Positions 4,008 to 28,413 of a DNA stretch of 64,000 nt are shown here, piece by piece. The stretch comes from Anaerolineaceae bacterium (GTDB taxonomy: Bacteria > Chloroflexota > Anaerolineae > Anaerolineales > Anaerolineaceae), in NCBI GenBank assembly GCA_016841525.1, contig JAENYZ010000001.1, forward strand, positions 744,001 to 808,000, written 5' to 3'. A program made the position numbers and the translations under genes. The notes beneath the pieces are model-generated. The model ran no database searches. It worked only from the letters and a program-made list of their open reading frames with translations, and had not been told where the DNA came from. How positions within the stretch are numbered: position 1 is the first letter of the stretch; every line of letters begins with the position of its first letter.

Positions 4008-4364
4008 CTAGCCTATCGGTTCAAATTTCAGGCCAAAAACATCTTCTCCAGCTTGCACTCTGACTGATTCCCAGCTTGGACGTACCTCCATACCCAACTT
4101 AAGCTCATCAATTGAATCGGCCTTTATCTGTCCCATAGCCTTGATCTTATTCTCAAACTCGGCTACGCCAATGATCAAGAATCGCTGGTCAAAACCCCAC
4201 GGCAGGTTATAGATGGATGTGTAGGTTAGGAGCTTGGCGTTTCCCTGGGGTTTGATCTTCTCAAACTCTCGGTTTTTACATTCCAGGCAGCGATCATGGA
4301 AAGGGTAATGAATCCGGCCGCACTTCTTACATTTGAATGCTGTAATGGCTATTTCATTTTTCAT
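4008..4364 (-). CDS. DUF35 zinc-ribbon/OB-fold protein, partner of the thiolase-like protein
   Basis: This 118-residue protein has an N-terminal zinc ribbon of two Cys pairs (CKKCG at about 12-16 and CLEC at about 27-30) followed by a small OB-fold, the architecture of DUF35. Such proteins bind acyl-CoA and form heteromeric complexes with thiolase-superfamily partners, for example BbsA with BbsB or ChsH2 with Ltp2. Its start overlaps the stop of the thiolase gene as ATGA (4361-4364), so the two are translationally coupled. That supports a complex. It is the last gene of the operon and is followed by a hairpin terminator. The family is clear; the substrate is not. Confidence 0.92.
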   Translation of the reverse strand: MKNEIAITAFKCKKCGRIHYPFHDRCLECKNREFEKIKPQGNAKLLTYTSIYNLPWGFDQRFLIIGVAEFENKIKAMGQIKADSIDELKLGMEVRPSWESVRVQAGEDVFGLKFEPIG

Positions 4365-5554
4365 GGCTCTGTCCTCTTCAGTACGAAGGAAACGACGTTG
4401 TTTCCGAACCCGCCAAAGTTTATGGTGAAACCATGTTTCGCGTTCTTTACTTGGCGGTCTTTTGGTAACTCATGCCTCAGTTGAAAGGTGATATCCACTA
4501 TTTGAGCAACGCCGGTCGCGCCGACTGGATGGCCTCGCGACTTCAAGCCGCCAGAGACATTGATCGGGAGTTGCCCCCCAAGGCGGGTTTTGCCGGCAGC
4601 AGCTGCTTTTCCGCCCTCACCTTTTTTAAAGAAGCCGATATGTTCACTCTCTGCAATTTCCAGGATTGTAAAGGCATCATGCAATTCGGCGACATCAATG
4701 TCTTTCGGTTTGAGCTTGGCCATATCAAATGCCTGTTGCGCAGCCAAAGTGACCGCTTTTAGATCAGTCGGGTCATCGCGCTCCTGGAGGGTGTGGGTAT
4801 CAGTGGCTTGCCCAAAACCAGCAATTAAAACAGGCGGTTTATTTTGCAGTTTTTTAGCCATATCCAGCGGACAGAGAATGACCGCTGCCGCTCCATCACT
4901 AACCGGGCAAAGATCGTAAAGATGCAGCGGTGTAGCCGCAACGGGATTGTTAACAACGGCATGCGGGCTGTCAAAAATTCCCTCACGATCTAATAACATC
5001 TCAACGTGAGCATAAGGGTTCAACGCGCCCATCTCCTGGTTCTTCATTGCGACAGCGAGGAGGTGTTCCCGTGTTACGCCATATTTCTCCATGTACAACT
5101 GCGTGAACATGCCTGCCATGCCGGGCAGGGTGATGCCGTATGGATATTCAACCTCTGGGTGGGTCATGGTGGCAACGAAATCAGTGGCTCTCCAGCCTGT
5201 GATTTCGCGCATTTTCTCGCCACCTGCAACCAGCACGTAATCGTAATAACCGGAAGCTACAGCCAGGAGGCCATTTTTCACTGCCGATCCGCCAGATGCT
5301 GGCCCGTTTTCGACAACATCAGCGGCAGCAGGCAGCAGGCTGAGCCGGTCCACCAGCGAACTGGCAATAGATGTCTGGTGCTGGATGATACCAGCGCCCA
5401 TATTCCCAACATAAACGGCGTCGACAGTTTTGTCTCCCATACCAGCATCATCAAGGGCATTAAGTGATGCATAGGCAAGCATGTCCAATAAACTGTCTTC
5501 GTCGCGTCGACCGAAAGGGATCATGCCAACCCCAATGATTGCAACATCTCTCAT
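4361..5554 (-). CDS. thiolase-superfamily protein (SCP2/Ltp2-like) lacking the nucleophilic Cys
   Basis: The protein is 397 residues, normal for a thiolase. It has the N-terminal MRDVAIIGVGMIPFG, the HDAF motif (H292) and the C-terminal GHPVGATG (H342). The position that normally holds the nucleophile in the CASG motif reads N83-G-P85-A-S-G-G-S, so Cys is replaced by Pro. The codon is clearly CCA. The C-terminal NFGGFG also lacks Cys. Ltp2-type aldolases, which pair with DUF35 proteins and cleave C-C bonds by retro-aldol chemistry, likewise lack this Cys. A CoA-linked aldolase, or a degenerate acyl-binding role, is therefore likelier than true thiolysis (inference). A strong AGGTAGGTG site precedes the ATG, and the DUF35 gene overlaps its 3' end. 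Confidence 0.88.
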   Translation of the reverse strand: MRDVAIIGVGMIPFGRRDEDSLLDMLAYASLNALDDAGMGDKTVDAVYVGNMGAGIIQHQTSIASSLVDRLSLLPAAADVVENGPASGGSAVKNGLLAVASGYYDYVLVAGGEKMREITGWRATDFVATMTHPEVEYPYGITLPGMAGMFTQLYMEKYGVTREHLLAVAMKNQEMGALNPYAHVEMLLDREGIFDSPHAVVNNPVAATPLHLYDLCPVSDGAAAVILCPLDMAKKLQNKPPVLIAGFGQATDTHTLQERDDPTDLKAVTLAAQQAFDMAKLKPKDIDVAELHDAFTILEIAESEHIGFFKKGEGGKAAAAGKTRLGGQLPINVSGGLKSRGHPVGATGVAQIVDITFQLRHELPKDRQVKNAKHGFTINFGGFGNNVVSFVLKRTEP

Positions 5555-5558
5555 CTTT

Positions 5559-6248
5559 TCACCTACCTTTCAAACCTGCAATACGCTCACGAATGGCTTT
5601 CTCGTCAGCATGTAAAATCTCTTTTTTGGCCTGATCGAGCAAGTCTTTCGGAACTGGGCGATCACCCACGACCAGGCGGGGTTTGGCAGCAAAATAGAGA
5701 TCTCGCGTCAGGCGATACGATTCGACTCCGCCCAATTCGTGTGAGATCTTGGTTTTTTCAAGTGGATATTCAATCATCCAGCGCCGGAATCCGATTGGGC
5801 TTTCAGCCACGATCAAGACCTCTTCTTGCCCCAAATACTCAATGTGATATTCCATCTTGGCGGCAAACAGGTGCGAGCCAATGCGCAACCCACGGTCAAT
5901 TGCCAGGGTATGATAACTGATGCCCACTTTCTCAGTCTCCATCCGGCCATTGACAATACCGACCAGATAGCCGTCTACCTGTCCCACCAGACAATAGGCA
6001 CTCTTTACCCGATATCGGTAATATGCCAGTAATTCACCGTAAAGCCTCGCACTGACAACGTCATAATAATCCCGTTCGATAAACAAACAGGGGTGAACTG
6101 TTTTCAGAATGGCGGGTACATCCTCTCGCTTTGCCTGGCGAACCACCATTTTTTTACCGTTCGCCAGGGTGATGACTTTTGGCGGATAGGGCGGCATTGG
6201 ATATTGAATCGGACGTAAGACTGCTTCAAGTTCTACATCTACTGCCAT
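5559..6248 (-). CDS. GNAT-family N-acetyltransferase-like protein
   Basis: This 229-residue protein has a central GNAT-like fold: VRQAKREDVPAILK (strand 1/helix 1), then YCLVGQVDGYLVGIVNGRM (strands 2-4), then LAIDRGLRIGSHLFAAKME, which corresponds to the acetyl-CoA pyrophosphate loop (R/Q-x-x-G-x-G/A: RGLRIGS). Both termini extend beyond a minimal GNAT domain. The acceptor is unknown. An AAGGAG site precedes the start. Its stop is 4 bases from the thiolase start and it lies 50 bases after the cyclase gene, so it is part of the catabolic operon. It may acylate or deacylate a CoA-linked intermediate (inference only). Confidence 0.75.
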   Translation of the reverse strand: MAVDVELEAVLRPIQYPMPPYPPKVITLANGKKMVVRQAKREDVPAILKTVHPCLFIERDYYDVVSARLYGELLAYYRYRVKSAYCLVGQVDGYLVGIVNGRMETEKVGISYHTLAIDRGLRIGSHLFAAKMEYHIEYLGQEEVLIVAESPIGFRRWMIEYPLEKTKISHELGGVESYRLTRDLYFAAKPRLVVGDRPVPKDLLDQAKKEILHADEKAIRERIAGLKGR

Positions 6249-6298: not shown

Positions 6299-7192
6299 TT
6301 AATACCCAGCCATGTTTTCTTTGCTGAGTTTATTCAAGCTCTCAACATGCTCCGGATTGTAGCAATCACCAAAGCGAGTTTTGGGCATTGATTCTTTCCT
6401 CTTCAACAATTCTTCGTACTCATCATCTTCCACCATGGCAACACAACGTCCAATACTGGCTTCGCCATCAACAAAACGCCACGGGAAGAAGCCTACCGTC
6501 AAACGGCGGTTAAGAACGAGGTCAATGTCGCCGCCGAGGCATTCTGCGTGCAGAATGACCCAGGGATCAGGGAACATTTCCAGGTGCATCAACTGGTACT
6601 TGCTGTCATCAAAGAACTGTTTCAACTTCTTGCCAAATTTCTTTTCGAAGACAAATTCAGCCTGCTTGGCCTGGCGGGGCATCCAGTCGCGGATAATGGT
6701 ATTCATAGGATGGTCGGCAGAACCGCAGTCCACGCCAATCCAGCGCAGTTTCATTTTCTTGGCCCATTCCGCAAATTCGCGGTCGGGACCGGGGTGCTGT
6801 ACCATGTAGCGCACTTCATCGCCTGTTGGGTGATCCCAGCCAAAATGGTGATAACCGGTGTGAATAATGAGGATGTCTCCTTCTTTTACCTCAACGCGGT
6901 CTGTGACCATTTTGCTAGTATACACATCATAATCACCAGCCGCATCACTCAAGTCAACGATTGCCGCTTTATGCACCAAGTAATCCATTGACAGGGAAGC
7001 AATGTCCACACCAGGAGTGTAGAAATGGCATTGGCCATCCAAATGGGTACCCAAATGGTTTGAGTGAGTCACAATTTGACCATTGGCGCCATTGGGGGCT
7101 AAGCGCTTGAAATACTTCACCTGCAGAGGTTCATAGGTGGGCCAGGGGGGGGTGCCGATACCGAGAGGTATAGTCAAATCAATAAATTTCAT
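6299..7192 (-). CDS. cyclase family protein (metal-dependent, kynurenine formamidase-like)
   Basis: This 297-residue protein carries the signature H46-L-G-T-H50-L-D52-G-Q-C-H56-F of the PF04199 family, in which the His and Asp residues bind catalytic metal. The family contains kynurenine formamidase, isatin hydrolase and related enzymes that hydrolyse amide or lactam bonds, often after ring hydroxylation. The ends are somewhat longer than in kynurenine formamidase. Its place behind a molybdenum hydroxylase and FdrA/DUF1116 genes suggests that it opens the ring, or cleaves an amide, of the compound handled by this operon (inference). An AAGGAGAAAGCT site precedes the ATG. Confidence 0.88.
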   Translation of the reverse strand: MKFIDLTIPLGIGTPPWPTYEPLQVKYFKRLAPNGANGQIVTHSNHLGTHLDGQCHFYTPGVDIASLSMDYLVHKAAIVDLSDAAGDYDVYTSKMVTDRVEVKEGDILIIHTGYHHFGWDHPTGDEVRYMVQHPGPDREFAEWAKKMKLRWIGVDCGSADHPMNTIIRDWMPRQAKQAEFVFEKKFGKKLKQFFDDSKYQLMHLEMFPDPWVILHAECLGGDIDLVLNRRLTVGFFPWRFVDGEASIGRCVAMVEDDEYEELLKRKESMPKTRFGDCYNPEHVESLNKLSKENMAGY

Positions 7193-7231: not shown

Positions 7232-8641
7232 TTAGAAATACTTTTTCTGAAATGCTTCAAAAGCATCCGCAAAGCATTTTTCAGGGGCACGCAAAATGCC
7301 TGCCCCAATACCACCAACGCCTGGGTCTTTGTGGGAAATGCCGGTATTTAATTTCGGCAGAATTCCTGTTTCCATTACTCTACGCACGTCAATACCCAAC
7401 GGGGTACCGCGGTAGTTGAGCACTGGAATGGTAAAGCCCTCATGCTCCGAGAAATTGATCTCATACATTTCCAGCGTGGCGCTCACTGCCATATCCGGCG
7501 TACCGCCCACGAACTGGGTGATCGCAGGTGCAGCTGCCATGGCAAAACCGCCATACCCAGCTGTTTCAGTGACCGTGCTGTCGCCAATATCCAGGTTAGC
7601 ATCGGCTGCCGAGAATCCCGGGAAATACAAACCTTCCACTTCACCGGCTGGCGCAATAAACCAGCGATCCGGCATACTGGACAGGCGAATGCCGAAATCC
7701 GTGCCATTGCGTGCCATCACTGTCAAAATGCTGGAACCTTCCACGCCTTCAGCCGGTTCCAGGGCTGCCTTGCCAGCAGGCATGGATAGATTCAGGAAGA
7801 AATGATCATTTTTGTCAATAAACTCTATCACCTTTGCTAAGACTTCATTGTCTTGATTAGTACGCGCCAGTGCAGGGCCAATCGCCCGTAAGAACAGGGA
7901 AGTACCTGCCCGGTTGCGGTTGTGGCCTTCATCTCCCATATGCAATGCCTGGGCGATCAACGCCTTCAAGTCAATCCCTTCAGGCATCGATTGCAGCGCC
8001 CGCTTCAAGACAGGGTAAAGCACATCTTCCATCCACTTCAACCGTTCATATACATCTGGCCCCATGCCGCCATAGCGCAGCACCTTGCCGAGGCCTTCAT
8101 TCTGCGTGCAGTATGCCTTGTTGCCGTACGTCTTATTCTCAACGATAAATACCGGCATACTGGGCGAAACAATGCCCGCCATTGGGCCTACCGTTTGATG
8201 ATGATGGCAGGGAGAGAACTCAATTTCGCCGCCAGCAGCCATTTTTTCTGCCGCTTCTTCGTTTCCGGCAATGCCTTCATATACCAGTGCGCCCATCACG
8301 GCACCCTTCATCGGGCCGCACATACGCTCCCAGGTGATCGGCGGGCCAGCATGCAGGATCATCCGATCATGCATCCCGGGAATGACATTCTTCGCCACAC
8401 CCATATCCACCAGGGTGGGTCGTGCCTGCTTGATGCGCTTCACAACTTCTTCGTTGGCTTCGTCAATATTGATTCCCGACTTGGTGATCCGTAAATGCTT
8501 CACACCTTCCTTAGGTGGCTGCCAATCTAACTGAAACGTGGGAACACCCTGGTCTTTGACAGCCTGGGCCATACTTTCCAGTCCAACATTAACCACTGCC
8601 AGCGGTTTTCCAAAAACGTCGTTAATTTTGCCTTTTTTCAT
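7232..8641 (-). CDS. DUF1116 protein (YlbE/AllG-like, FdrA partner)
   Basis: About 469 residues starting MKKGKINDVFGKPLAVVNVG. It belongs to the DUF1116 family by its AGPPITWERMCGPMKGA, FSPCHHH and GTSLFLRAIGPALAR segments. In E. coli the homologue YlbE (AllG) works with FdrA (AllF) and the DUF2877 protein (AllH) in oxamate carbamoyltransferase activity. A DUF2877 gene is present here at 17263-18162. The start at 8641 was preferred over a GTG, TTG or ATG 66 bases upstream. It has a GAAGGCGG ribosome site and begins two bases after the fdrA stop, whereas the longer form would overlap fdrA by 64 bases. Cytoplasmic; probably in a complex with FdrA. Confidence 0.88.
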   Translation of the reverse strand: MKKGKINDVFGKPLAVVNVGLESMAQAVKDQGVPTFQLDWQPPKEGVKHLRITKSGINIDEANEEVVKRIKQARPTLVDMGVAKNVIPGMHDRMILHAGPPITWERMCGPMKGAVMGALVYEGIAGNEEAAEKMAAGGEIEFSPCHHHQTVGPMAGIVSPSMPVFIVENKTYGNKAYCTQNEGLGKVLRYGGMGPDVYERLKWMEDVLYPVLKRALQSMPEGIDLKALIAQALHMGDEGHNRNRAGTSLFLRAIGPALARTNQDNEVLAKVIEFIDKNDHFFLNLSMPAGKAALEPAEGVEGSSILTVMARNGTDFGIRLSSMPDRWFIAPAGEVEGLYFPGFSAADANLDIGDSTVTETAGYGGFAMAAAPAITQFVGGTPDMAVSATLEMYEINFSEHEGFTIPVLNYRGTPLGIDVRRVMETGILPKLNTGISHKDPGVGGIGAGILRAPEKCFADAFEAFQKKYF

Positions 8642-8643
8642 GG

Positions 8644-10212
8644 TTACACCGCCTTCTTTTCGACGATCATCCCGGCCAGCCGCGACGCTGCTGCATTGCT
8701 GGGACATACGATCAAGCCGTATCTCTCCAGCGCTTTTGCCTGGCGTGTCAAACCTTGTGGGTCCAGTTCCGTGCCGGTCACTGAAGCAATCACGATCACT
8801 TCTCGGCCCTCGGCTTTCGCTTTGGCTTTTGCCTCCTGGACCGCAAGCCCCAATTCAGAGGCCGGATCCATGTGCGCGCCATAGCCAATGACCACATCCA
8901 TCATGATCACAGCCACCTCGGGATCGGCCGCTTCCTGATAAATGCGCCGAATACGCAGATCATTATCGATCATCGGATGCGGACGGCCTACAGTAAATTC
9001 TTCTTCACCGAGATCGACCGTGCAATGACCTTCACTGCGCGTTGAATCCTCCATCGTTTTGGCCTTGTTCAGTGGAGCATTGGATAGTACCGGCTCAGAC
9101 ATCAGCTCTTCCCAGATGACCTGGGACTCGTAACACAGCGTGCCGCCAGAGAACAAACCGCGCAGATAGCGCTGCCCATCGCTCAAGGTGGTTGCCAGTT
9201 CATCAGCCTGAACCTTCAAATCAGCTGTTTCTCCGGCAATCAATGCATCAATATCCGGTAGATCAGCACCAGCCAGTTTAGCGCCCAGTAGACCGCCTTC
9301 CTGCAGCGTACGCACAGCCATGGCGTTCTTCACACCGTCAGCCACGGTCACATCGCCACCCATGAAACACATCACCGTTGGCTTACTGCCTTTTGCAACC
9401 TGATCCACAACGAGTTGTGTCACGGATGGTGCCGGCGGCTTACCAATCAGTACAATGTAGTGGGTATTTTCGTCTTCCTGGAGAGCTTGTAAACCGGCCA
9501 GCATCATGATGCCGCCCACCGATGCTTTTAAATCGCGCCCGCCCGTGCCGATACCCTGAGTGATGCCGATGCCATTCTTGGCCAGCAGTGTGCTCACCTC
9601 TTGTAGACCGGTACCAGCCGCCGAAACGATGCCCACCGAGCCTGCTGGAACCACATTGGCAAAGCCCAACGCTACGCCGTTGATGATCGCCGTACCTGCG
9701 CCAGGGCCCATCAGCAACAAACCATGCTCAGCAGCGAATTTCTTCAAGGCGATCTCATCTTCCAACGAGACATTGTCGCTGAACAGCAGCACATGCAGAC
9801 CCTGGAACAACGCTTCCCATGCTTCTTCTGCCGCATACCGTCCTGCCACCGAAATAATCGCCATATTGGCTTCAGGATGAGAGCGGACAGCACCGCGTAC
9901 CGATTTGGCAAGAAATTCTGCGCCTTCGCCTCCTACAGTACTCTTCTTTGAGAGGATTTTTTCTGCTTCTTCCAGTGCTTTCTCAGCCACAACATTATCT
10001 GCTTTGACCGCAATGATCAGGTCATTGGGCGTGGTCGCATCTGCTTCTGGTGTGAGCAAACCTGCCTGTTCCAGCAGGGATTTATTGGCCTCTGTGCCCA
10101 TCACAACAGAAGCATCTTCCACTCCCGGAAATTCAGTAAGCTCCCGCGCGACCAGCATCAAGCTGACCGAGTCATGATATTCACTGGTTTTGATTAGGAC
10201 TTTTACAGACAA
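8644..10212 (-). CDS. fdrA: FdrA family protein (acyl-CoA/succinyl-CoA synthetase-like; oxamate carbamoyltransferase component)
   Basis: The 522-residue protein has the two CoA-ligase-type domains of FdrA, with LLMGPGAGTAIINGVALGFAN and the GTGGRDLKASVGG segment in the first half. The FdrA hallmark FSGGTLCYESQVIWEELM lies in the second half. In E. coli FdrA sits in the allantoin/oxamate cluster with DUF1116 and DUF2877 partners, as it does here. The start is a TTG (TTG TCT GTA AAA) with a very strong AAAGGAGG ribosome site; no ATG fits better. It lies 39 bases downstream of the Mo-hydroxylase subunit gene. It probably handles acyl-phosphate or carbamoyl transfer at the end of the degradation route. 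Confidence 0.92.
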   Translation of the reverse strand: MSVKVLIKTSEYHDSVSLMLVARELTEFPGVEDASVVMGTEANKSLLEQAGLLTPEADATTPNDLIIAVKADNVVAEKALEEAEKILSKKSTVGGEGAEFLAKSVRGAVRSHPEANMAIISVAGRYAAEEAWEALFQGLHVLLFSDNVSLEDEIALKKFAAEHGLLLMGPGAGTAIINGVALGFANVVPAGSVGIVSAAGTGLQEVSTLLAKNGIGITQGIGTGGRDLKASVGGIMMLAGLQALQEDENTHYIVLIGKPPAPSVTQLVVDQVAKGSKPTVMCFMGGDVTVADGVKNAMAVRTLQEGGLLGAKLAGADLPDIDALIAGETADLKVQADELATTLSDGQRYLRGLFSGGTLCYESQVIWEELMSEPVLSNAPLNKAKTMEDSTRSEGHCTVDLGEEEFTVGRPHPMIDNDLRIRRIYQEAADPEVAVIMMDVVIGYGAHMDPASELGLAVQEAKAKAKAEGREVIVIASVTGTELDPQGLTRQAKALERYGLIVCPSNAAASRLAGMIVEKKAV

Positions 10213-10251: not shown

Positions 10252-12600
10252 TCAATCCAGAATACCGGCATCCTTCATTGCCAGATAAACTTTCTCTGGT
10301 AGGAAGGGAGGACCTTCCAATCGTATTCCGGTTGCATCGTAGATCGCATTTCCCAAAGCTGCAATGGTAGGGGTCATCGGGTGTTCGCCAATGCCGCGAG
10401 CCCCGAAGGGGCCATCATCCTGCGGCACTTCTACAAAATATGTCTCCATTACCCTGGGGACATCCACAGTGGTGGCAATACGGTAATCCACAAAGCTCGG
10501 ATTCTGCATCACACCTTCTTCAAGGATTATCTCTTCAAAGATGGCTGAGCTGATACCCTGCATCATACCGCCTTCCATTTGGGCTTTTACCAATTCGGGA
10601 TTCAGCGCACGTCCTACATCGAAAGCTGTGACCGCTTTGAGGATCTCAATCTTGCCAGTATCCTTGTCAATTTCAATATCAAAGCCCTGGGCACCGGTTG
10701 TATAATGGACAACAGCGCGTGGTCCCTGCCCTGTTTCGGGATCCAGGCCGGTGACATAAGAGGGCATAAAACTGCCCTGTCCCACCACCGGTCCACCAAT
10801 CCAGCCCTGGTCATCCTCTTTCGGAATGCCATAGACCGCAATATTCTTCAGTGACATTTCCTTTTCGGATCTATAGGAAACAACGATACCATTGATGATG
10901 TCCAGGTCGTCCACATCCTCATCCCAGGCTTCCGCTACCATTTCCAGGATTTGCCGGCGAGCATCTGCTGCTGCAAACCTCACTGCATTCCCCATACTCC
11001 AGGTCAGCCGGCTGGCGACAGTTTGCCATTCATAAGGGCTGTATTGCGTATCCAACGGTCCGGCAATGCGGATATCTTCCATCGGAAGCCCAATCGTAGC
11101 AGCTGCAATCTGGGCGGCTACGGTGAAAGCACCCTGCCCAATTTCCTGTCCGCCCACATTGACCGTCGCTGTACCATCTTCATTCATCTCTATAAAGGCG
11201 CTTGAACCGGCATTGGGGGGCATGGCCGGTGCCTTCCAGGATATGGCAATACCTTTACCACGCAATTTATTGTCAGAACTGGCTTTTTCCTTCACACCCC
11301 AATTGATGCCTTTGGCAACCTTGTCAATACACTCCTGCAAACCAATGGGGTGCATCTTCATTCCGGTTACGTTGATATCACCACCCTGAATAGAATTCCT
11401 TTTCAAAAATTCCACCTTGTCCATGCCGATCTTTTCGGCCAGCTCATCCATCACCTGGCCAATACCGGTATGCAGCTCGGACATGCCAAAGCCTCGATAG
11501 GCACCGCCAATCGGGTGGTTGGTGTAAACGCAAAAGCTGTCTGTCTTAACATTGGGAATATCAAAGGGGCCAGTGGAGCTGTATCCGCCAGCACGTGTAA
11601 TATTCACACCATACTCGGTAGAAGCGCCGCCGTCCCAATACATTGTGTTTTCCATTGCCAGCATGTTGCCATCTTTATCACAGCCCACTTTGAGCTTGAT
11701 CTTCAACCCCTGACGAACAAAATTGGTATAAAATTCTTCTTCACGGGTGAAGCGCATCTTGACTGGATGCCCCTTTGCCTTAAGGGCAATGGCAACCGGC
11801 ATTGCTTCCATGGTCACACCAGCCTTACAGCCAAAACCGCCGCCAACATACGGGGCAATCACGCGCATATCGGATTCCGAAATACCAAGTGTCTTCGCGA
11901 TCAGGTTGCGCTGCGCAAATGGGGATTGCGATGAAGCCCACAAAGTAACCCGTCCGTTGTCATCAGTTTTGGCGATGGCAATATGGGGTTCAATGGGCAC
12001 ATGCTGCACCTGCGGAATATGGAAAGATTTTTCAACTATCGCAGCACAGTCTTTCCATGCGCGATCCACATCCCCTTTGCGTGCCTTAAAATGGTTGGAA
12101 ATATTCGTTCCCGGTTTGGGGAAAATAAAATTCGCCACTTCATAATCACCCATATCAGGGTGGATCAACGGCGCGTCCGGACTTGCGCCATAAATTGAAT
12201 CAAAAACCGGTTCCAGAAGTTCGTATTCAACTTCAATCAATTCACAAGCTTTCTCGGCGATCTCCTCGTTCACAGCTGCGACGCCGGCTACAGCTTCGCC
12301 AACAAAGCGAACACGATCTGTCGCGAAAATATTCTTGTCCTTCAAATACAAGCCGATACGCTGGGGATAATCCTTACCGGTAACAATCACTTTCACACCC
12401 GGCAAAGCTTCTGCCTTGCTGGTATCAATCTTCTTGATCAAGGCATGAGGGTGCGGGCTGCGCTTCACACGGGCATACAGCAGGTTTTTTCCAAACTGAA
12501 TATCATCTGTGTAGATCGCCGCACCAGTAACCTTCCCATGAACATCAACGCGCAACGGGCTTTTTCCGATCAATTCTGGCATTTTATCTGTGACTGCCAT
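10252..12600 (-). CDS. xanthine dehydrogenase-family hydroxylase, molybdopterin-binding subunit
   Basis: This 782-residue large subunit of a molybdenum hydroxylase starts with the aldehyde oxidase a/b hammerhead domain (about 20-125). Molybdopterin-binding motifs follow: GGGFGCK near 250, GAYRGFG near 370 and GGQEIGQGAF near 480. The catalytic glutamate lies in G733-ARGIGE739. The VAYRCSFR loop of CO dehydrogenase is absent, so this belongs to the xanthine/aldehyde/N-heterocycle group. It hydroxylates carbon next to ring nitrogen. The 2Fe-2S and FAD subunits are encoded just upstream. The NCS2 permease in the same operon points to a nucleobase-like substrate, but sequence alone does not separate xanthine from other heterocycles. 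Confidence 0.92.
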   Translation of the reverse strand: MAVTDKMPELIGKSPLRVDVHGKVTGAAIYTDDIQFGKNLLYARVKRSPHPHALIKKIDTSKAEALPGVKVIVTGKDYPQRIGLYLKDKNIFATDRVRFVGEAVAGVAAVNEEIAEKACELIEVEYELLEPVFDSIYGASPDAPLIHPDMGDYEVANFIFPKPGTNISNHFKARKGDVDRAWKDCAAIVEKSFHIPQVQHVPIEPHIAIAKTDDNGRVTLWASSQSPFAQRNLIAKTLGISESDMRVIAPYVGGGFGCKAGVTMEAMPVAIALKAKGHPVKMRFTREEEFYTNFVRQGLKIKLKVGCDKDGNMLAMENTMYWDGGASTEYGVNITRAGGYSSTGPFDIPNVKTDSFCVYTNHPIGGAYRGFGMSELHTGIGQVMDELAEKIGMDKVEFLKRNSIQGGDINVTGMKMHPIGLQECIDKVAKGINWGVKEKASSDNKLRGKGIAISWKAPAMPPNAGSSAFIEMNEDGTATVNVGGQEIGQGAFTVAAQIAAATIGLPMEDIRIAGPLDTQYSPYEWQTVASRLTWSMGNAVRFAAADARRQILEMVAEAWDEDVDDLDIINGIVVSYRSEKEMSLKNIAVYGIPKEDDQGWIGGPVVGQGSFMPSYVTGLDPETGQGPRAVVHYTTGAQGFDIEIDKDTGKIEILKAVTAFDVGRALNPELVKAQMEGGMMQGISSAIFEEIILEEGVMQNPSFVDYRIATTVDVPRVMETYFVEVPQDDGPFGARGIGEHPMTPTIAALGNAIYDATGIRLEGPPFLPEKVYLAMKDAGILD

Positions 12601-12670: not shown

Positions 12671-13138
12671 TTATTTCTCGACAGAGGCCTTGACTGCGTC
12701 TATAATGCGCACATACCCGGTACATCGACATAGATTTCCGACCAGGGCTTCACGAATTTCATTTTCAGAGGGATCGGGGTTTCTTTTCAGCAGTGCAAAA
12801 GCCGAAATCAACATACCTGGTGTACAAAAACCGCACTGAACGCCGCCTTTAGCAATCAACATTTCCTGCAGCTTGATCAACTGTCCATTATGCGACAGCC
12901 CTTCTACCGTTATTACTTCAGCCCCATCACATTCAGCAGCCAGCACCATACAGCTGTTCACCGGCTCACCATTCATCAAAACAGTACAAGCGCCACACTC
13001 ACCTGCTGCGCAGCCATTCTTCACGCCGGTTAATCCCATTTCCTCGCGCAGCATGACCAGCAAAGTCATGTTGGCAGGAACATTAACCACTTCAGTTTCT
13101 CCATTCACTTTCAGGGTAATTTGATGATACGATATCAT
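12671..13138 (-). CDS. xanthine dehydrogenase-family hydroxylase, 2Fe-2S subunit
   Basis: This is a 155-residue small subunit with all eight cluster-binding cysteines. C43, C48, C51 and C63 form the plant-ferredoxin-type cluster (NGCAAGECGAC). C102, C105, C137 and C139 form the helical cluster (QCGFC and LCRC). It passes electrons from the Mo centre to FAD. The ATG at 13138 was chosen over a start 48 bases upstream because it overlaps the stop of the FAD-subunit gene as ATGA (13135-13138). That is a typical coupled junction, and MISYHQITLKVNG is a natural N-terminus for this family. Confidence 0.95.
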   Translation of the reverse strand: MISYHQITLKVNGETEVVNVPANMTLLVMLREEMGLTGVKNGCAAGECGACTVLMNGEPVNSCMVLAAECDGAEVITVEGLSHNGQLIKLQEMLIAKGGVQCGFCTPGMLISAFALLKRNPDPSENEIREALVGNLCRCTGYVRIIDAVKASVEK

Positions 13139-14058
13139 CGATTTGCCTCCAATCCGTTTTCCGTTCTGCTTTGCAGCTGACCCCACACTTCGGTAATAGC
13201 GTTGCGGGTAAGGTTTCGCACCATTTCCTTACGGTATCTAGCACTCCCTCTCACGTCATCGATTGGAAAGCACGCATCCATGCTCGCATTAGCAGCTTCC
13301 TGGATCGTGTCTTCCGTTATTTCATTTTCCGATAATACAGTCTCAACAACTGGCGGCATTAACGGTGTTGCCGCTACAGAAGCTAAAGCCACTTTGATAC
13401 GGAACCCCGATTCTGTCATCTTGTCCGGGAATCCATACACGGTTACCCCGACGATCGCCAGGTCGCTCAATTTATTGCGGCCTAGCTTGAGATACGTTCC
13501 CGTTGCGCCTTTTTCCGGCAGCGGGAAGTTGATGGATGTAACAATTTCACCAGGCTGCAAACTGGTCTTGCCCGGTCCTTTGAAGAAGGTGACAAGGTCT
13601 TCAAAACGCTCGCCGTCCTTACCATATATATTGAGGCGGCCGCCAAGCAAAAGGCAGGCTCCCAGTGTATCACCAGCCGGGGAAGCATTACAGATGTTTC
13701 CCACAATTGTGGCGCGATTTCTTAATTGATAACTGGCTACGCTTTTCGCAGCCTGTGCAAGAAGCGGGTAATGCTTTTGAACATCTGGATGAGCCACTAC
13801 CCGGTTCATGGGAACTGCTGCACCAATCTTCAACCCGCTGCTCGGGTCAAATGCCAGCACATCAGTGCCTTCCAAACCCTTGATATCAACAACATACGCC
13901 GGTTTGAAAGCTTTATCCCGCATGCGCACCAACAAATCAGTGCCACCCGAGATGAGCCGCGCCTCGCCAGCATGTTCTACCAGGAAGCCACAGGCTTCAT
14001 CCAATGAAGCAAGTTTTACATAGGTGAATTCTGGAAGTCCTGGATGCGGATTCAACAT
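13135..14058 (-). CDS. xanthine dehydrogenase-family hydroxylase, FAD-binding subunit
   Basis: The medium subunit is about 307 residues, starting MLNPHPGLPEFTYVK. It shows the FAD-binding motifs of this family, with ISGGTDLLVRMR near residues 36-47 and TIVGNICNASPAGDT near 115-130. The CO-dehydrogenase FAD C-terminal domain makes up the last third. The start at 14058 follows an AAGGAAAAAAAC ribosome site; an in-frame start 54 bases upstream would take in a hairpin. Its 3' end overlaps the 2Fe-2S gene. The subunit order FAD, 2Fe-2S, Mo is common for bacterial hydroxylases of this class. Confidence 0.93.
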   Translation of the reverse strand: MLNPHPGLPEFTYVKLASLDEACGFLVEHAGEARLISGGTDLLVRMRDKAFKPAYVVDIKGLEGTDVLAFDPSSGLKIGAAVPMNRVVAHPDVQKHYPLLAQAAKSVASYQLRNRATIVGNICNASPAGDTLGACLLLGGRLNIYGKDGERFEDLVTFFKGPGKTSLQPGEIVTSINFPLPEKGATGTYLKLGRNKLSDLAIVGVTVYGFPDKMTESGFRIKVALASVAATPLMPPVVETVLSENEITEDTIQEAANASMDACFPIDDVRGSARYRKEMVRNLTRNAITEVWGQLQSRTENGLEANR

Positions 14059-14079
14059 AGTTTTTTTCCTTTTGTAGGT

Positions 14080-14110
14080 GTTATACCGGCGGGCTTGCCG
14101 CCGGTATAAC
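14080..14110 (-). promoter_or_regulatory. intercistronic hairpin between permease and hydroxylase genes
   Basis: A perfect 13-bp inverted repeat (GTTATACCGGCGG / CCGCCGGTATAAC) with a 5-base loop fills the gap between the permease stop (14154) and the FAD-subunit start (14058). No T-run follows on either strand. It more likely partly attenuates transcription or stabilises the mRNA end than fully terminates it. Confidence 0.6.
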
Positions 14111-14153
14111 ATTCATTCTCCATTCAATCAGATTACCAAATGCATTAACCAAA

Positions 14154-15548
14154 TTACGTGTTGAGGTTTTCCCGTTCACCAACACCAAATTTCGCGGGCG
14201 GCAAAATCAGGAAGATCGAATTCAGTACAATACCAACGATGGCTGCAAACACAATGGCCGGGATGCCATCGGGGAAGACAGCAGGAATCGGGAAGGGGAA
14301 CATACCATTGGGCAAGGCCATGCTGCCGCCGATGCCTGTAACTAGGATGGCCGAACCAATTGCCAGTTGGCGGGGATCAAACAGGTTGACCTTCTCGGAC
14401 ATGATCAAAGCCACCCCCTGCATTCCAATTACGCCAAACAGGTAAATCGACAGGCCGCCGGTCACTGCCAACGGGATCGAGTTCACCAAAGCAGCCAATT
14501 TCCCAATAAAGCCCAGCAAAATGGCGATGCCGCCGGCTGTCATCAACACAGAGACAGAGTAGTTGCGCGTGATAGCCATCAGCGAGTTGTTCTCGCCATA
14601 GTTCGTGCCTGAACAGCCTCCCATGAACCCGACAATCATATCATCCGTACCATCTGCAACCAGGTTCAAACCGATCAGTTTCTTGATCTCAATCGGTTCA
14701 CGGCCTATTTGCTTGGCAAGCGCATCAATGTACAGACTCATCTGGTACAGATGAGCAGTAGATTCGGGAATGGTAGCGATAGCGATCAACGCTATGCTCA
14801 ACACCGTACCCCATGCAGCGGGGTTGCCAAATGCTGGCAAAGTGATATTGGGAACGCGCACCCACTGAGCGGCAACAACACCACTGAGATCAGCCAGCCC
14901 AAAGAACGCAGCCACAATATAACCAAATACAGCGCCCAGCAAAATAGGAAGCATGCCAATCAAACCCTTACCCTGCAAGTAGACTGAGAAGACTACTGTA
15001 GCAACAAGGGTGATCAAAGCCACTGCCCAGTTCGCGGAGGCCATATCAAGTGCAGCGCCTGCCAGGGCAATACCAATCGTGATCGCGATGGAACCAGTGA
15101 TAACGGGTGGGAGAAATTTGTCAAGTGCCTCCTTACCGATACGCATGATCAACAATCCCACGAGAATGTTGAGCACACCAGTACCCATAATACCCACCTG
15201 CACGATGCGGACACCGTCCGGGCAGTAGGTCGTGGCGGCATTGCCGAAGCAAGCCGGGTCATAAATAGACATGACTGAGGCCACAACAGCGATGTAACTG
15301 AAGCTGGAACCGTAGTACATGGGAATCCGGCGACCGCTGACCAACAAAGCAATGATGGTGCCGATACCGCTGGCAAGCAGGGTAACGCCAACATCAAACT
15401 TGGTCAAAATGGCAACGAGAACGGTGGCCGGGAACATGGTCAGCACTTGCTGGAAGCCGAGGCTTAGCATTGCGCCAACGGGCGGGACATCTTGCGGAAG
15501 GTACCCAATTACTTCATCTGGCGATTTTATCGCTTTAGATTTTTTCAT
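14154..15548 (-). CDS. NCS2 family nucleobase:cation symporter (xanthine/uracil permease type)
   Basis: This 464-residue polytopic membrane protein has about 12-14 hydrophobic segments and NCS2 motifs. The first is PPVGAMLSLGFQQVLTMFPAT near the N-terminus. The second is GTNYGENNSLMAITRNYS in the second half, equivalent to the TTYGENIGVMAIT of uracil/xanthine permeases. It imports a nucleobase-like compound with protons or sodium. It is the first gene of the long minus-strand operon, preceded by AGGAGCCAATAAA and a long leader with a terminator hairpin. Its position before a molybdenum hydroxylase suggests a purine or similar heterocycle as substrate. Direction and family are secure, the substrate is inferred. 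Confidence 0.92.
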   Translation of the reverse strand: MKKSKAIKSPDEVIGYLPQDVPPVGAMLSLGFQQVLTMFPATVLVAILTKFDVGVTLLASGIGTIIALLVSGRRIPMYYGSSFSYIAVVASVMSIYDPACFGNAATTYCPDGVRIVQVGIMGTGVLNILVGLLIMRIGKEALDKFLPPVITGSIAITIGIALAGAALDMASANWAVALITLVATVVFSVYLQGKGLIGMLPILLGAVFGYIVAAFFGLADLSGVVAAQWVRVPNITLPAFGNPAAWGTVLSIALIAIATIPESTAHLYQMSLYIDALAKQIGREPIEIKKLIGLNLVADGTDDMIVGFMGGCSGTNYGENNSLMAITRNYSVSVLMTAGGIAILLGFIGKLAALVNSIPLAVTGGLSIYLFGVIGMQGVALIMSEKVNLFDPRQLAIGSAILVTGIGGSMALPNGMFPFPIPAVFPDGIPAIVFAAIVGIVLNSIFLILPPAKFGVGERENLNT

Positions 15549-16651: not shown

Positions 16652-17260
16652 ATGAAGAAACTGGATACCATCTGCCCGCAATGCAACACAAGCAAAGAGG
16701 TCTACAGAGTCAGCGAGATCTACCTGTCCGGCCTCGAAAGTATCAAATCCAGCAAACCCCCACAGGATAACGCCTTTGACCTCGTTTTCGGTCATCCCAG
16801 CCAAAAGTTCGGTCGACGATTCGTCGATCAGACAACCAAACGCACCCTGGTCAGCAAATTTGCCCCCCCTTCCAGCAGCAAACAGCGCATCTTCCGCAGT
16901 CTCTCTCCAGATTTCATCATGTTTGCTACTTTCTTATTAAGCATCTTCATGCTCTACCAGATTTTCACTCAACAGCGGGAAGTCTTCGTTCCTGCACTGC
17001 TCATCATCCTCGCTGTGAGCACCGCCTACCTCTTCACCCGTAAAAGGATTGTTGCCAGGTTCATCGAAAAGCAAAAAAATGAAGCCAGAGAAACTGAGCA
17101 GGTCAAGGAAGCCATTGAACGCTGGATGAACCTCTATTACTGTGCGGCAGATTTCATTGTTTTTGACAATGAACACCGCATCTCTATCCCATTGCAGCAA
17201 ATGAACAACTACCTGATGTCCCCTGAAATCTGGTTGAATCAGGCTGCACAAGACGAATAA
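16652..17260 (+). CDS. membrane protein with N-terminal zinc-ribbon-like Cys pair, unknown function
   Basis: The 202-residue protein begins MKKLDTICPQCNTSKEVYRV, half of a zinc ribbon (CPQC), with no second Cys pair nearby. Two adjacent membrane segments follow in the middle (about 88-106, FATFLLSIFMLYQIF; about 113-130, VFVPALLIILAVSTAYLF). A polar C-terminal region of about 70 residues contains a possible helical linker (KNEARETEQVKEAIERW). AAGGA precedes the ATG. Its stop is 2 bases from the start of the DUF2877 gene, so the two are likely co-translated. No known family was recognised. Confidence 0.72.
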   Translation: MKKLDTICPQCNTSKEVYRVSEIYLSGLESIKSSKPPQDNAFDLVFGHPSQKFGRRFVDQTTKRTLVSKFAPPSSSKQRIFRSLSPDFIMFATFLLSIFMLYQIFTQQREVFVPALLIILAVSTAYLFTRKRIVARFIEKQKNEARETEQVKEAIERWMNLYYCAADFIVFDNEHRISIPLQQMNNYLMSPEIWLNQAAQDE

Positions 17261-17262
17261 TC

Positions 17263-18162
17263 ATGTTCCATGCCTTATGTGTGGGGAACTGCATCGCTCA
17301 ACAGCTTGCTGGTGATCAAGATCTCAAACTCATCGGCCAGACCTCGCGCGGGTGCTTTCTTCAGACTGCTGACCCACCCGTTTGGACAGTTTTCATCAGC
17401 GAAGAGACGGCTCACGGTCCGCTGACCATCAATCTTCCATCTGGCGTCATTACCCCCATCAAGCAGGCCGCCGCGCAAACCATCGCCTTGCGTCATGGCA
17501 TTCTCCATTTTTCCAATTCGGTTCAGCTTTCCCTGCAAAATATTCCCCACTGGCAGACACCTGCCACTCTCAATCCCATTCAGCCACTCGTCTCCCGCCA
17601 GGCTACAATTGCCGAAGCCATTCGCACCATCCAGCAGCGCAAGCCAGGAAACAATCTAGCCGGTATCCTGCCGGATTTGCTGCCCATGTTAGCGATGTCC
17701 TCGCTCCCTTCTTCAACAGGCGGACAATTTACTGAAAAGCTGCACCGATTAATCGCCGGTTTGCATGCATCCGACACCAACTCCATGGCCAGCCTTCTGG
17801 CCACATTCCTCGGCCAGGGCAGTGGTCTGACCCCCTCCGGGGATGATTTTCTGCTCGGTTTCTTCCTCACCCTGCAACGTTGGAGAGCTCATTTATCCCT
17901 GGCGGATTCCGTATGCCCCCTGGGACGAACCATTGCAGAATTGGCAAAACACCAGACGACTTATCTCAGCTCAAACCTGATCGAATGCGCCATCTTTGGG
18001 GAAGCTGACCAGCGCCTCATCAACGCATTGGACGGGTTGATGACAGCCGAAAAATGCGACCTCGCCTGGCTGGACGGACTCCTTACCTGGGGCAGCTCCT
18101 CTGGCCTGGATGCATTCGCCGGCATGATACTCGCAAATGATTGCCGAATTGCAGGGGTTTGA
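17263..18162 (+). CDS. DUF2877 protein (YlbF/AllH-like), third component of the FdrA/DUF1116 system
   Basis: This 299-residue protein carries the DUF2877 hallmark GQGSGLTPSGDDFLLGFFL near residues 184-202 and a C-terminal GSSSGLDAFAGM. In E. coli the corresponding protein (YlbF, AllH) is encoded beside fdrA and ylbE and is linked to oxamate carbamoyltransferase. Here it lies on the opposite strand, about 7 kb from fdrA and across the permease promoter, but clearly completes the set. It starts 2 bases after the preceding stop with no ribosome site of its own, so translation is probably coupled. The assignment to the carbamoyl-transfer step follows family knowledge and context. Confidence 0.88.
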   Translation: MFHALCVGNCIAQQLAGDQDLKLIGQTSRGCFLQTADPPVWTVFISEETAHGPLTINLPSGVITPIKQAAAQTIALRHGILHFSNSVQLSLQNIPHWQTPATLNPIQPLVSRQATIAEAIRTIQQRKPGNNLAGILPDLLPMLAMSSLPSSTGGQFTEKLHRLIAGLHASDTNSMASLLATFLGQGSGLTPSGDDFLLGFFLTLQRWRAHLSLADSVCPLGRTIAELAKHQTTYLSSNLIECAIFGEADQRLINALDGLMTAEKCDLAWLDGLLTWGSSSGLDAFAGMILANDCRIAGV

Positions 18163-26766: not shown

Positions 26767-28287
26767 CTAAATCAAATCCAGCTTAGGTCTGTACTGCAGC
26801 GCCTCCGCCAGATGCACCTGGGTGATTCCCTCTGACCCTGCTAAATCGGCAATCGTCCTTGAGAGCTTGAGTACACGGTGATAAGCCCGCGCCGTGAGCT
26901 GCAGCTGGCGCATGGCGGTCTTCATCAGCGCCTGGCAGGGCTCATCCAACTCACAGTACTTGCGGATTTGTCTCGGGCGCATATCAGCATTGCTGGCAAT
27001 GTCCGTCCCCTCAAAGCGCTCCCGCTGACGTTCGCGAGCTGTTTCCACTCGTTGACGCACCTCGGCTGAAGATTCCCCTTTGCGCATATCCCGCAGTTTC
27101 TGGTACTCCACTCTTGGCACCTGCATGTGGATGTCGATCCGGTCCATCAGAGGTCCCGAGATGCGCTTTTGGTAGCGAGTGACAGACGAAGAAGAACAGG
27201 TGCAGGGGCGTGCCGGGTCACCAAAGTACCCGCAGGGGCAGGGGTTCATTGCAGCAGCTAATTGAAAATTGGCGGGAAAGGTCAGCGAACCCTGCGCCCG
27301 GCTGATGGTCACCACCTTATCCTCCAGGGGTTGGCGCAAAACCTCCAGCACCTTGGAACTGAATTCGGGCAGTTCATCCAGGAACAACACTCCTCTGTGT
27401 GCCAGGCTGATCTCCCCCGGGTGCGGCCAGTTGCCGCCGCCCACCAGTCCGGCATGGCTGATGGTATGATGCGGTGATCGGAAGGGTCGCGCCCTGATCA
27501 AAGGCACATCAGAAGGCAGCAAGTCCGCCACGCTGTAGATGCGGGTCACATCCAGCTGCTCATCAATGGTCATGGTCGGTAAAATCGAAGGGAGCGCGCG
27601 TGCCATCAGGGTCTTGCCAGCACCAGGCGGACCGATCATCAGCAGGTTATGCCCACCGGCTGCAGCCACTTCCAGCGCACGTTTAACATGCTCCTGTCCT
27701 TTGATCTCGCTGAAGTCCGTCTCTACAAAAACGTCTGCCGGATCGTGCGGCGGTGCCTCAGCAGGAGACAAGGGGACTATCCCCGTCAGGTGGTCATACA
27801 GCGCGTTCAGTGTCGGTGCTGGGATGACCTCGATATCCGGAATTAATGCCGCCTCAGGCGCATCCACTTCCGGGACGATGACCCGCTTATAACCCACTTC
27901 CCTGGCGAGGGCAGCCATGGGCAGCACGCCTTTGACGTGGCGCACGCTCCCATCCAGCGAAAGTTCCCCGATGATCAACGAGTCTTCTACTGCTTCTGGA
28001 TCTAACTGGCTGGTTGCAATCAACACTCCCACAGCAATTGGTAAATCATAAGCCGGCCCCTCTTTGCGCACTGATGCCGGCGCCAGGTTGACAGTCAGCT
28101 TCTTACGAGGATAATAAAACCCGGCGTTCTTAACTGCGGATGCCACACGTTCACGACTCTCCTGTACTGCAGTATCTGGCAAACCAACGATGACCATCTT
28201 CGGAAGTCCCCCACCTGTATCCACTTCTACTTCAACAACAACGCCGTCCAACCCAATCACGGCGCATGAGAAAACTCGTGCCAGCAT
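26767..28287 (-). CDS. comM: YifB/ComM family Mg chelatase-like AAA+ ATPase (intact)
   Basis: The 506-residue length is normal. The N-terminal ChlI-like domain spans about 20-140 (VDTGGGLPKMVIVGLPDTAVQ). The AAA domain spans about 190-395, with Walker A MIGPPGAGKTLMA, Walker B region GVLFLDELPEF and the zinc-finger-like NPCPCGYFGDP..CTCS loop. The C-terminal Mg-chelatase domain follows (RISGPLMDRIDIHMQVPRVE to LQYRPKLDLI). In naturally competent bacteria ComM is a hexameric helicase that promotes branch migration of incoming DNA. MLARVFSCAVIGLDG at 28287 fits the family start; a GTG two codons upstream is possible. Seven partial copies of its 3' third lie downstream, all in the same orientation. 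Confidence 0.95.
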   Translation of the reverse strand: MLARVFSCAVIGLDGVVVEVEVDTGGGLPKMVIVGLPDTAVQESRERVASAVKNAGFYYPRKKLTVNLAPASVRKEGPAYDLPIAVGVLIATSQLDPEAVEDSLIIGELSLDGSVRHVKGVLPMAALAREVGYKRVIVPEVDAPEAALIPDIEVIPAPTLNALYDHLTGIVPLSPAEAPPHDPADVFVETDFSEIKGQEHVKRALEVAAAGGHNLLMIGPPGAGKTLMARALPSILPTMTIDEQLDVTRIYSVADLLPSDVPLIRARPFRSPHHTISHAGLVGGGNWPHPGEISLAHRGVLFLDELPEFSSKVLEVLRQPLEDKVVTISRAQGSLTFPANFQLAAAMNPCPCGYFGDPARPCTCSSSSVTRYQKRISGPLMDRIDIHMQVPRVEYQKLRDMRKGESSAEVRQRVETARERQRERFEGTDIASNADMRPRQIRKYCELDEPCQALMKTAMRQLQLTARAYHRVLKLSRTIADLAGSEGITQVHLAEALQYRPKLDLI

Positions 28288-28413
28288 AAGCACCCCGATT
28301 CTTCGATAAAAGCTGTAATGTCAATGTCCAAATTTTAACATACTTTTGGATCCCATTAATGGGATTCGGATTGTTAGGCTTTATTCCATTGTTTCTATGT
28401 TTCCACAGGTCGG

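Follow-up and report, generated by a model that had tools for sequence, protein, structure and literature searches.

What chemistry is left to a thiolase that has lost its nucleophilic cysteine? The question is raised by a gene in a stretch of 64,000 nucleotides from an Anaerolineaceae bacterium (Chloroflexota; GenBank assembly GCA_016841525.1, contig JAENYZ010000001.1, positions 744,001 to 808,000), further referred to as the window. The gene encodes a thiolase-fold protein and is followed by a gene for a DUF35 protein; together the two products would make up a putative acyl-coenzyme A (CoA) enzyme of the thiolase fold. The observations given below establish the protein as a genuine and conserved variant of a known fold. 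It is annotated as a thiolase, and a putative role other than that of a thiolase is defensible. It is encoded in what seems to be an operon for nucleobase breakdown and probably eliminates CO2 or some other carbon unit instead of working as a thiolase.

The nucleophile motif of the window protein reads V-E-N-G84-P85-A-S-G, with Pro at the position of the thiolase Cys, and both catalytic His residues are retained (H292 of HDAF and H342 of GHP). In the frame of the thiolase open reading frame the plus strand of 4361–5554 is interrupted by stops. Pfam Thiolase_N and Thiolase_C_1 both score well above cut-off, and the best NCBIfam match is PRK06064 (NF004720) with 412 bits, slightly below its cut-off of 420. 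The nearest solved chains are 7yvy and 6esq, the top PDB matches, and 4yzo. Thus, the protein has the fold domains and the His pair of the Cys-dependent thiolases (PF00108/PF22691 group) but lacks the nucleophilic Cys of CxSG. A preliminary description of this stretch had reported Pro in place of the nucleophilic Cys, the retained HDAF and GHP, and an overlap with the DUF35 gene; all of these are borne out, the DUF35 frame overlapping the stop of the thiolase gene by 4 bases. The same description noted the absence of Cys from the C-terminal motif, which is true but not distinctive, because 32 of the 35 Cys-type rows of our alignment likewise have no Cys at column 379. The DUF35 protein carries four zinc-ribbon Cys residues (C12, C15, C26 and C29), and the solved chain closest to it, 6esq_E, is the DUF35 subunit of the archaeal thiolase/3-hydroxy-3-methylglutaryl-CoA (HMG-CoA) synthase complex.

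Orthologs of the thiolase-fold protein were collected from a contig scan and from two genome surveys. The scan yielded five orthologs with 84–91% identity to the window protein. In the survey of 298 genomes of the class, 18 genomes, including the window's own, have an ortholog; the other 17 orthologs show 66–85% identity, followed by a gap down to 43% among the matches listed. The survey of 400 genomes of the phylum, partially overlapping with the class set, added, among the matches listed, one ortholog from the same order (86%) and one from outside the class (75%). The resulting set of 25 orthologs comprises 23 full-length rows, the window protein included, and two partial sequences (L007 and L021), which were excluded from the alignments and used only for reading the motifs. 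ENGPASG is present in all 25, the others being 66–91% identical to the window protein, and Pro85 is therefore neither a sequencing error nor chance. P85, H132, Y137, H292, L298, H342 and N385 are invariant in all 23 full-length orthologs. Judged by this comparison, the Cys-to-Pro change at position 85 is fixed and old, and no accident of a single genome. The next relatives from Chloroflexota in the phylum survey (40–46% identity) have CAS and HDCF in 14 of the 14 fetched loci (L159–L172). The nucleophile motif of relatives is not uniformly CASG, being CASA in two of them.

Haloarchaeal relatives with approximately 39–45% identity were found by tblastn against plasmids, and further loci came from another plasmid search for which one of these relatives was the query. 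In the 13 fetched haloarchaeal loci, position 85 is occupied by Ser (12) or Asn (1), and the common motifs are HD[AM]F[TSA][IV]LE and GF[GD]N. Contrast loci that do have the Cys were fetched likewise (L060, L067, L069–L072, L076 and L077; three haloarchaeal and five bacterial). PDB entry 4YZO, which is the Sulfolobus tokodaii protein ST0096 (PMC6392133), has Ser at position 85.

Two phylogenetic trees were built with the motif columns excluded. Tree 1 contains 54 of 68 aligned rows; the 14 rows excluded by hand are eight near copies (orthologs and paralogs) and six of the ten rows resembling the aldolase Ltp2, including the strongest of these, L082. All 30 Cys-free rows form one clade on this tree with support 100/99. 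Tree 2, which contains 66 of 84 rows and includes L082, seven other Ltp2-like rows and loci from the phylum survey, recovers the Cys-free clade again (29 rows, 100/99). The clade unites Chloroflexota (Pro), haloarchaea (Ser or Asn) and Sulfolobus ST0096 (Ser), with no Cys at position 85 throughout. L298 and N385 are found in 35 of 35 Cys-free rows and in none of the 35 Cys-type rows, and the window protein belongs to this ST0096-like clade both by these residues and by clade support. The preliminary description had named placement inside a Cys-containing clade as the result that would speak against it; the clade is instead free of Cys at position 85, with the caveat that another Cys, C216, is conserved (see below). 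ST0096 itself keeps HDM, GHP and GYGN, but differs from the window protein in having Ser rather than Pro at position 85, HDMA rather than HDAF, and a long branch. Its position within the clade is unsure because of this long branch and an odd composition. No function for ST0096 was seen in the portions of the open-licence literature that were consulted.

Closest to the window protein by sequence are the archaeal acetoacetyl-CoA thiolase of the thiolase/DUF35/HMG-CoA synthase complex (6ESQ) and proteins of the PRK06064 type, which have the same type of DUF35, HDxF and GHP. The window system differs from them in that it lacks the nucleophilic Cys and has no HMG-CoA synthase match in its operon; the clade and the operon differ as well. 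Two other proteins without the Cys were also observed. The paralog L003 from the window's own genome (G000:C9:520172-521311) has Asp for the nucleophilic Cys (EAADASGG), together with HDAT, and sits on a long branch inside the Cys-type clade. L035 (G044:C206:467-1609) has Gly (EAAGASG), with YDSF and GNP replacing HDAF and GHP. Both were considered as kin of the Cys-free clade and rejected, given that they are nested in the Cys-type clade, and they therefore represent independent losses of Cys.

The thiolase and DUF35 genes stand at the end of a same-strand run in the order permease, XdhB, XdhC, XdhA, AllF, AllG, cyclase, 229-aa protein, thiolase, DUF35, with gaps from −64 to +70 bases. The coordinates are given in the table.

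Table. Genes of the operon and of the divergent unit in the window (positions are those of the window)
Feature	Coordinates	Strand	Remarks
DUF35 (zinc ribbon + OB fold) partner subunit	4008..4364	minus	118 aa; slightly below Pfam cut-offs; closest solved chain 6esq_E
Thiolase-fold protein, no Cys at position 85	4361..5554	minus	397 aa; P85, H292 (HDAF), H342 (GHP), N385, H132, C216
229-aa protein	5559..6248	minus	GNAT-like by eye only; 4 bases before thiolase gene
Cyclase-family (PF04199) hydrolase	6299..7192	minus	candidate ring-opening or amide hydrolase
AllG, oxamate-type transcarbamylase subunit	7232..8707	minus	
AllF (FdrA), succinyl-CoA-synthetase-like transcarbamylase subunit	8644..10212	minus	
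XdhA, molybdenum hydroxylase large subunit (xanthine dehydrogenase / 4-hydroxybenzoyl-CoA reductase superfamily)	10252..12600	minus	
XdhC, [2Fe-2S] subunit of molybdenum hydroxylase	12671..13186	minus	
XdhB, FAD subunit of molybdenum hydroxylase	13135..14112	minus	
Nucleobase permease (PF00860)	14154..15548	minus	first gene of run
AllH, third transcarbamylase subunit	17263..18162	plus	divergent unit

The best solved relative of XdhA is 4-hydroxybenzoyl-CoA reductase, and it is not clearly a xanthine dehydrogenase. The GNAT assignment of the 229-aa protein was not retained, as the protein matches no model of Pfam or NCBIfam and nothing in the PDB matches it with an E-value better than 0.9. The window's own genome encodes a carbamate kinase that scores above its cut-off. 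In the divergent unit, AllH is directly preceded by a gene for a 202-aa protein of no Pfam family (16652–17260, plus strand). A second AllG homolog is located in the same genome outside this operon (G000:C3:181665-182312).

The gene context of the thiolase was then compared across Chloroflexota. An ortholog of the cyclase is present, among the matches listed, in 17 of the 18 thiolase genomes against 84 of 298 overall (p=2e-9, uncorrected for kinship), the genome without it being G087. AllG is present in 17 of the 18 against 119 of 298 (p=9e-7, likewise uncorrected), G251 being without it. DUF35 lies within approximately 0.6 kb of the thiolase in all 23 thiolase loci, the window included. The 229-aa gene was found at 19 of these loci, the cyclase at 17, AllG at 11, the permease at 10, AllF at 9 and XdhA at 8, several loci being cut by contig ends. 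Some loci have additional genes beside the pair: a gene for methylmalonyl-CoA mutase together with an epimerase-like VOC gene, both on the same strand, in L045; the pyrimidine-biosynthesis genes for an OTCase/ATCase-like protein, an orotidine monophosphate (OMP) decarboxylase-phosphoribosyltransferase, a dihydroorotate dehydrogenase and an amidohydrolase in L046; a PnrA-type ABC transporter nearby in L009 and L056; and matching permease genes in L051 and L053.

A sister set was formed by 64 fetched cyclase loci without the thiolase: 63 from thiolase-free genomes, and L155 from G251, which has its thiolase at another place. Of the 84 cyclase genomes, four (G092, G180, G269 and G277) have partial cyclase matches only, and their loci were not fetched. 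Among the 64 sister loci, 11 contain a carbon-nitrogen hydrolase, 9 a relative of the 229-aa protein (37–39% identity to the window's where measured), 5 a CaiB CoA-transferase and 5 an MmdA-type biotin carboxyltransferase, a subunit of the (methyl)malonyl-CoA decarboxylase type. Loci with MmdA additionally have a Na+-decarboxylase beta subunit (L093, L123) or a biotin carrier (L095, L151). L151 combines CaiB, MmdA, biotin carboxyl carrier protein, cyclase, AllF, carbon-nitrogen hydrolase and AllG, the complete set required if the route were to end in malonate, malonyl-CoA and acetyl-CoA. The five observed MmdA genes compare with 0.375 expected from the density in 30 of these genomes (P=5e-5 for at least five); with L095 and L151, which belong to one family, counted once, P=0.0006 for at least four. 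As a separate observation, a distant relative of the 229-aa protein occurs without the thiolase or DUF35 in the cyclase operons L092, L093, L097, L098, L104 and L154; this family is therefore not tied to the thiolase.

The haloarchaeal loci were picked by similarity of the thiolase, not by context, and are few and related. A CaiB CoA-transferase is located within 8 kb of 8 of the 13 Cys-free loci, with 62–86% identity to that of L062 (L062 counted). An SLC23 nucleobase permease is present at 4 of the 13 loci, and MoeA at 3 (one of them a partial match). At the eight Cys-type contrast loci there is no CaiB above 37% and no SLC23 match. For CaiB the difference (8/13 vs 0/8) gives Fisher p=0.006, or p=0.010 without L062. 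The best NCBIfam models for this CaiB are dicarboxylate CoA-transferases (succinate/glutarate, mesaconate, oxalate), all below cut-off. L073 has a cyclase-family gene (44% identity to the window's) and a hydantoinase-like gene; a urease cluster stands beside the pair at L065, and a molybdenum hydroxylase with AMP-binding ligases at L058. The parallel between CaiB with MmdA in Chloroflexota and CaiB with the thiolase-DUF35 pair in haloarchaea suggests that the pair replaces MmdA, although the difference in their occurrence is not significant.

How might such a protein act? Pro85 has neither a thiol nor an NH, and therefore the usual acyl-cysteine intermediate would not be possible. The change would also remove the backbone NH that helps to form the oxyanion hole for the acyl group; in the DUF35-partnered relative PhlC, the acyl group is carried by Cys88 and the oxyanion hole is formed by the backbone NH of Cys88 and a Gly (available text of PMC6392133). 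H292 and H342 could instead hold and stabilise the acyl-CoA enolate of a malonyl-type CoA ester, with DUF35 closing the CoA site. The C-C bond next to the thioester would then be cleaved: a malonyl- or methylmalonyl-type CoA ester would be decarboxylated with release of CO2 and subsequent protonation. A model is provided by the KSQ domains of polyketide synthases, in which the nucleophilic Cys is likewise replaced, by Gln rather than by Pro as in the window protein, and the His pair is kept. The likeness is in the way of working, whereas KSQ domains differ in belonging to the ketosynthase family, in using a substrate bound to a carrier protein and in having no DUF35. In a KSQ decarboxylase, the His residues bind the carboxylate of the malonyl group (available text of PMC12267109). 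The TbSLP protein of Trypanosoma, in which the Cys residues of SCP-2 thiolases are said to be absent, shows very slow decarboxylation of malonyl-CoA (available text of PMC12329534). We favour, tentatively and with less than even confidence, a Cys-independent C-C lyase that would employ its His pair on a malonyl-type acyl-CoA derived from breakdown of the ring; a KSQ-like decarboxylase is the likeliest form of it. Of this, the residues, the clade, the gene pairing with DUF35 and the gene context are observed, and the formation of a complex, the reaction, its substrate and the order of the pathway are inferred.

In the corresponding pathway, a nucleobase taken up by the permease would be passed to the molybdenum hydroxylase and its ring opened by the cyclase-family hydrolase. 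AllFGH would yield carbamoyl phosphate, and carbamate kinase would produce ATP from it, leaving a malonate-type carbon skeleton; breakdown of the nucleobase would end with the CoA ester. In the window genome this ester could possibly be formed by AllF, a relative of succinyl-CoA synthetase, or by direct attack of CoA. The oxidative pyrimidine route proceeds from uracil through barbiturate and ureidomalonate to malonate, and we infer a pyrimidine-like ring, not a purine-like one. A purine-only pathway is possible and would yield no malonyl-type product. The wider proposal, which we consider conceivable but doubtful, is that of a previously undescribed thiolase-fold/DUF35 family, wholly Cys-free at position 85, which would complete an anaerobic, oxidative pathway of nucleobase degradation by decarboxylating malonyl-CoA, methylmalonyl-CoA or a comparable CoA ester. 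The ring carbon and carbamoyl phosphate would both be used for energy, and haloarchaea would employ the same enzyme by way of a CoA-transferase. No earlier description of a Cys-free thiolase-DUF35 pair in nucleobase breakdown came up in the searches, which covered part of the open-licence literature.

Several points weigh against decarboxylation of such an ester. The known reaction of AllFGH belongs to the breakdown of allantoin in purine degradation, and its product is oxamate, not malonate. No gene for any of the known acyl-CoA-forming enzymes is present in the window operon, and the CaiB query has no match in the window's own genome. A Na+ decarboxylase beta subunit is encoded elsewhere in this genome. 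CtSal, also without the nucleophile, showed no decarboxylation of malonyl-CoA according to the available text of PMC12329534. In haloarchaea, the CaiB comparison restricted to the three haloarchaeal Cys-type loci is 8/13 vs 0/3 (p=0.10), the other five controls being bacterial. The CaiB matches in L068 and L074 fall short of the 401-aa query, at 343 and 293 aa, and lie in an unannotated stretch; 5 of the 13 loci are without CaiB and 9 without the SLC23 permease. MmdA had already been seen in L093, L095 and L096 before counting, and the two fresh loci alone, one of which (L151) is of the L095 family, give P=0.055. Mutual exclusion of the thiolase and MmdA was considered and rejected as not significant (0/23 vs 5/64, Fisher p=0.32). 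The conserved C216 could serve as a relocated nucleophile. Finally, structure prediction from five supplied sequences each gave a mean pLDDT (predicted local distance difference test score) of 31 for the thiolase protein and 47 for its 229-aa neighbour, and thus no view of the pocket.

Among the alternatives, direct cleavage by CoA is unlikely. Here CoA would attack the acyl carbon of an acylurea or a 1,3-dicarbonyl from the opened ring, giving acyl-CoA and urea or an amide without an acyl-enzyme, and this would account for the missing CoA ligase in the window. The lack of a CaiB match in the genome, the retained His pair and the urease cluster adjoining L065 are consistent with this reaction. 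The CoA-transferase found at the majority of haloarchaeal loci, however, would be superfluous for it, and the carbamoyl group would already have been removed by AllFGH.

We assign a similarly low probability to a catalytically inert subunit that would offer DUF35 and the 229-aa neighbour a scaffold or a platform for binding CoA, comparable to PhlA beside PhlC. Loss of the nucleophile and the 229-aa gene only 4 bases away would fit, and an inactive thiolase-family subunit (PhlA) has been proposed for phlABC (available text of PMC2954200). Nevertheless, strict invariance of H132, Y137, H292, L298, H342 and N385 is unusual for an inert protein, no second thiolase-family gene was found among the operon proteins scanned, and the 229-aa gene is absent from 4 of the 23 loci, one of these being cut by a contig end.

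A thiolase with a relocated nucleophile, in which C216 of the SDGA loop would be the acyl-enzyme residue, is quite improbable. C216 is present in 34 of the 35 Cys-free rows, including all 21 Pro rows and all 13 haloarchaeal rows, whereas among 21 Cys-type rows this position is Ser in 15 and Cys in 4. In the Zoogloea thiolase the matching residue is, as we assume, Ser247 near the pantetheine. However, the four ordinary Cys-type rows that also have Cys mean that C216 is not tied to nucleophile loss; the matching 4YZO residue is Thr by alignment, and with Pro85 the oxyanion-hole NH would still be missing.

The preliminary description had likened the pair to aldolases of the Ltp2/ChsH2 type. A retro-aldolase like Ltp2 or Sal would cleave a beta-hydroxyacyl-CoA made from the ring-opened product in a pocket shaped by DUF35. 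Ltp2 and Sal, with their DUF35 partners ChsH2 and Shy, indeed resemble the window pair in the thiolase fold, the DUF35 partner and the absence of the nucleophilic Cys. However, their catalytic Tyr occupies the position of the HDxF His (Y294 in TcLtp2, Y302 in CtSal), with Tyr or Gln 50 residues further on; Ltp2 employs Tyr294 and Tyr344, and Sal employs Tyr302 and Cys304 (available text of PMC12329534). The spacing of Tyr294 and Tyr344 equals that of H292 and H342 in the window protein, which has neither the Tyr of YD[HC][FY] nor Tyr or Gln at the GHP His. Column 292 is Tyr in all ten Ltp2-like rows (YDxF or YDxY); column 342, a poorer separator, is Tyr in five and His in five, with GHPxG in none. 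Ltp2-like rows form a clade of their own with support 100/100 (four rows on tree 1; eight, including L082, on tree 2), apart from the Cys-free clade. With the catalytic Tyr absent, both thiolase His kept, a separate clade and no MaoC-type hydratase match among the operon proteins scanned, a retro-aldolase is distinctly improbable. Thus, the Cys loss and the DUF35 partner stand as common features, but the kinship with Ltp2 is not supported; cleavage of a C-C bond in a CoA-linked ring-opening product, also proposed earlier, remains plausible in a ring-degradation operon once the aldolase kinship is dropped. By sequence, the window protein is neither a Cys-dependent thiolase nor an aldolase of the Ltp2/Sal type. 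Least probable of all is a C-acylation or Claisen-type condensation of a ring or ketoacid without a covalent intermediate, for although the subunit types match PhlC-PhlB, PhlC requires Cys88 (the Ala and Ser variants are inactive; available text of PMC6392133) and no PhlA/HMG-CoA-synthase-like match was found among the operon proteins scanned.

Another thiolase-DUF35 pair acting within a degradation pathway is the benzoylsuccinyl-CoA thiolase BbsAB. The window proteins fall below its NCBIfam equivalog cut-offs, with 162 bits against 750 for the thiolase and 38 against 250 for DUF35.

Thiolases are annotated by fold, and therefore the names given to members of the Cys-free clade include 3-ketoacyl-CoA thiolase and acetyl-CoA acetyltransferase, even though these proteins lack a residue required by the mechanism. 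With its spread over bacteria and archaea, its fixed residue changes close to the active site and its repeated occurrence in a nucleobase setting, the clade offers a concrete test of fold reuse for non-covalent enolate chemistry. Also indicated is an as yet unassigned route by which the carbon of nucleobases would reach CoA esters in Chloroflexota; AllG is as widespread there as given above (119 of 298 genomes), and we know of no substrate assigned to it.

Elsewhere in the window, a C-terminal fragment resembling Mg-chelatase/ComM is located at 1412–1792 on the minus strand. Its full-length relative is found at 26767–28293 on the same strand, and the fragment may be a broken copy.

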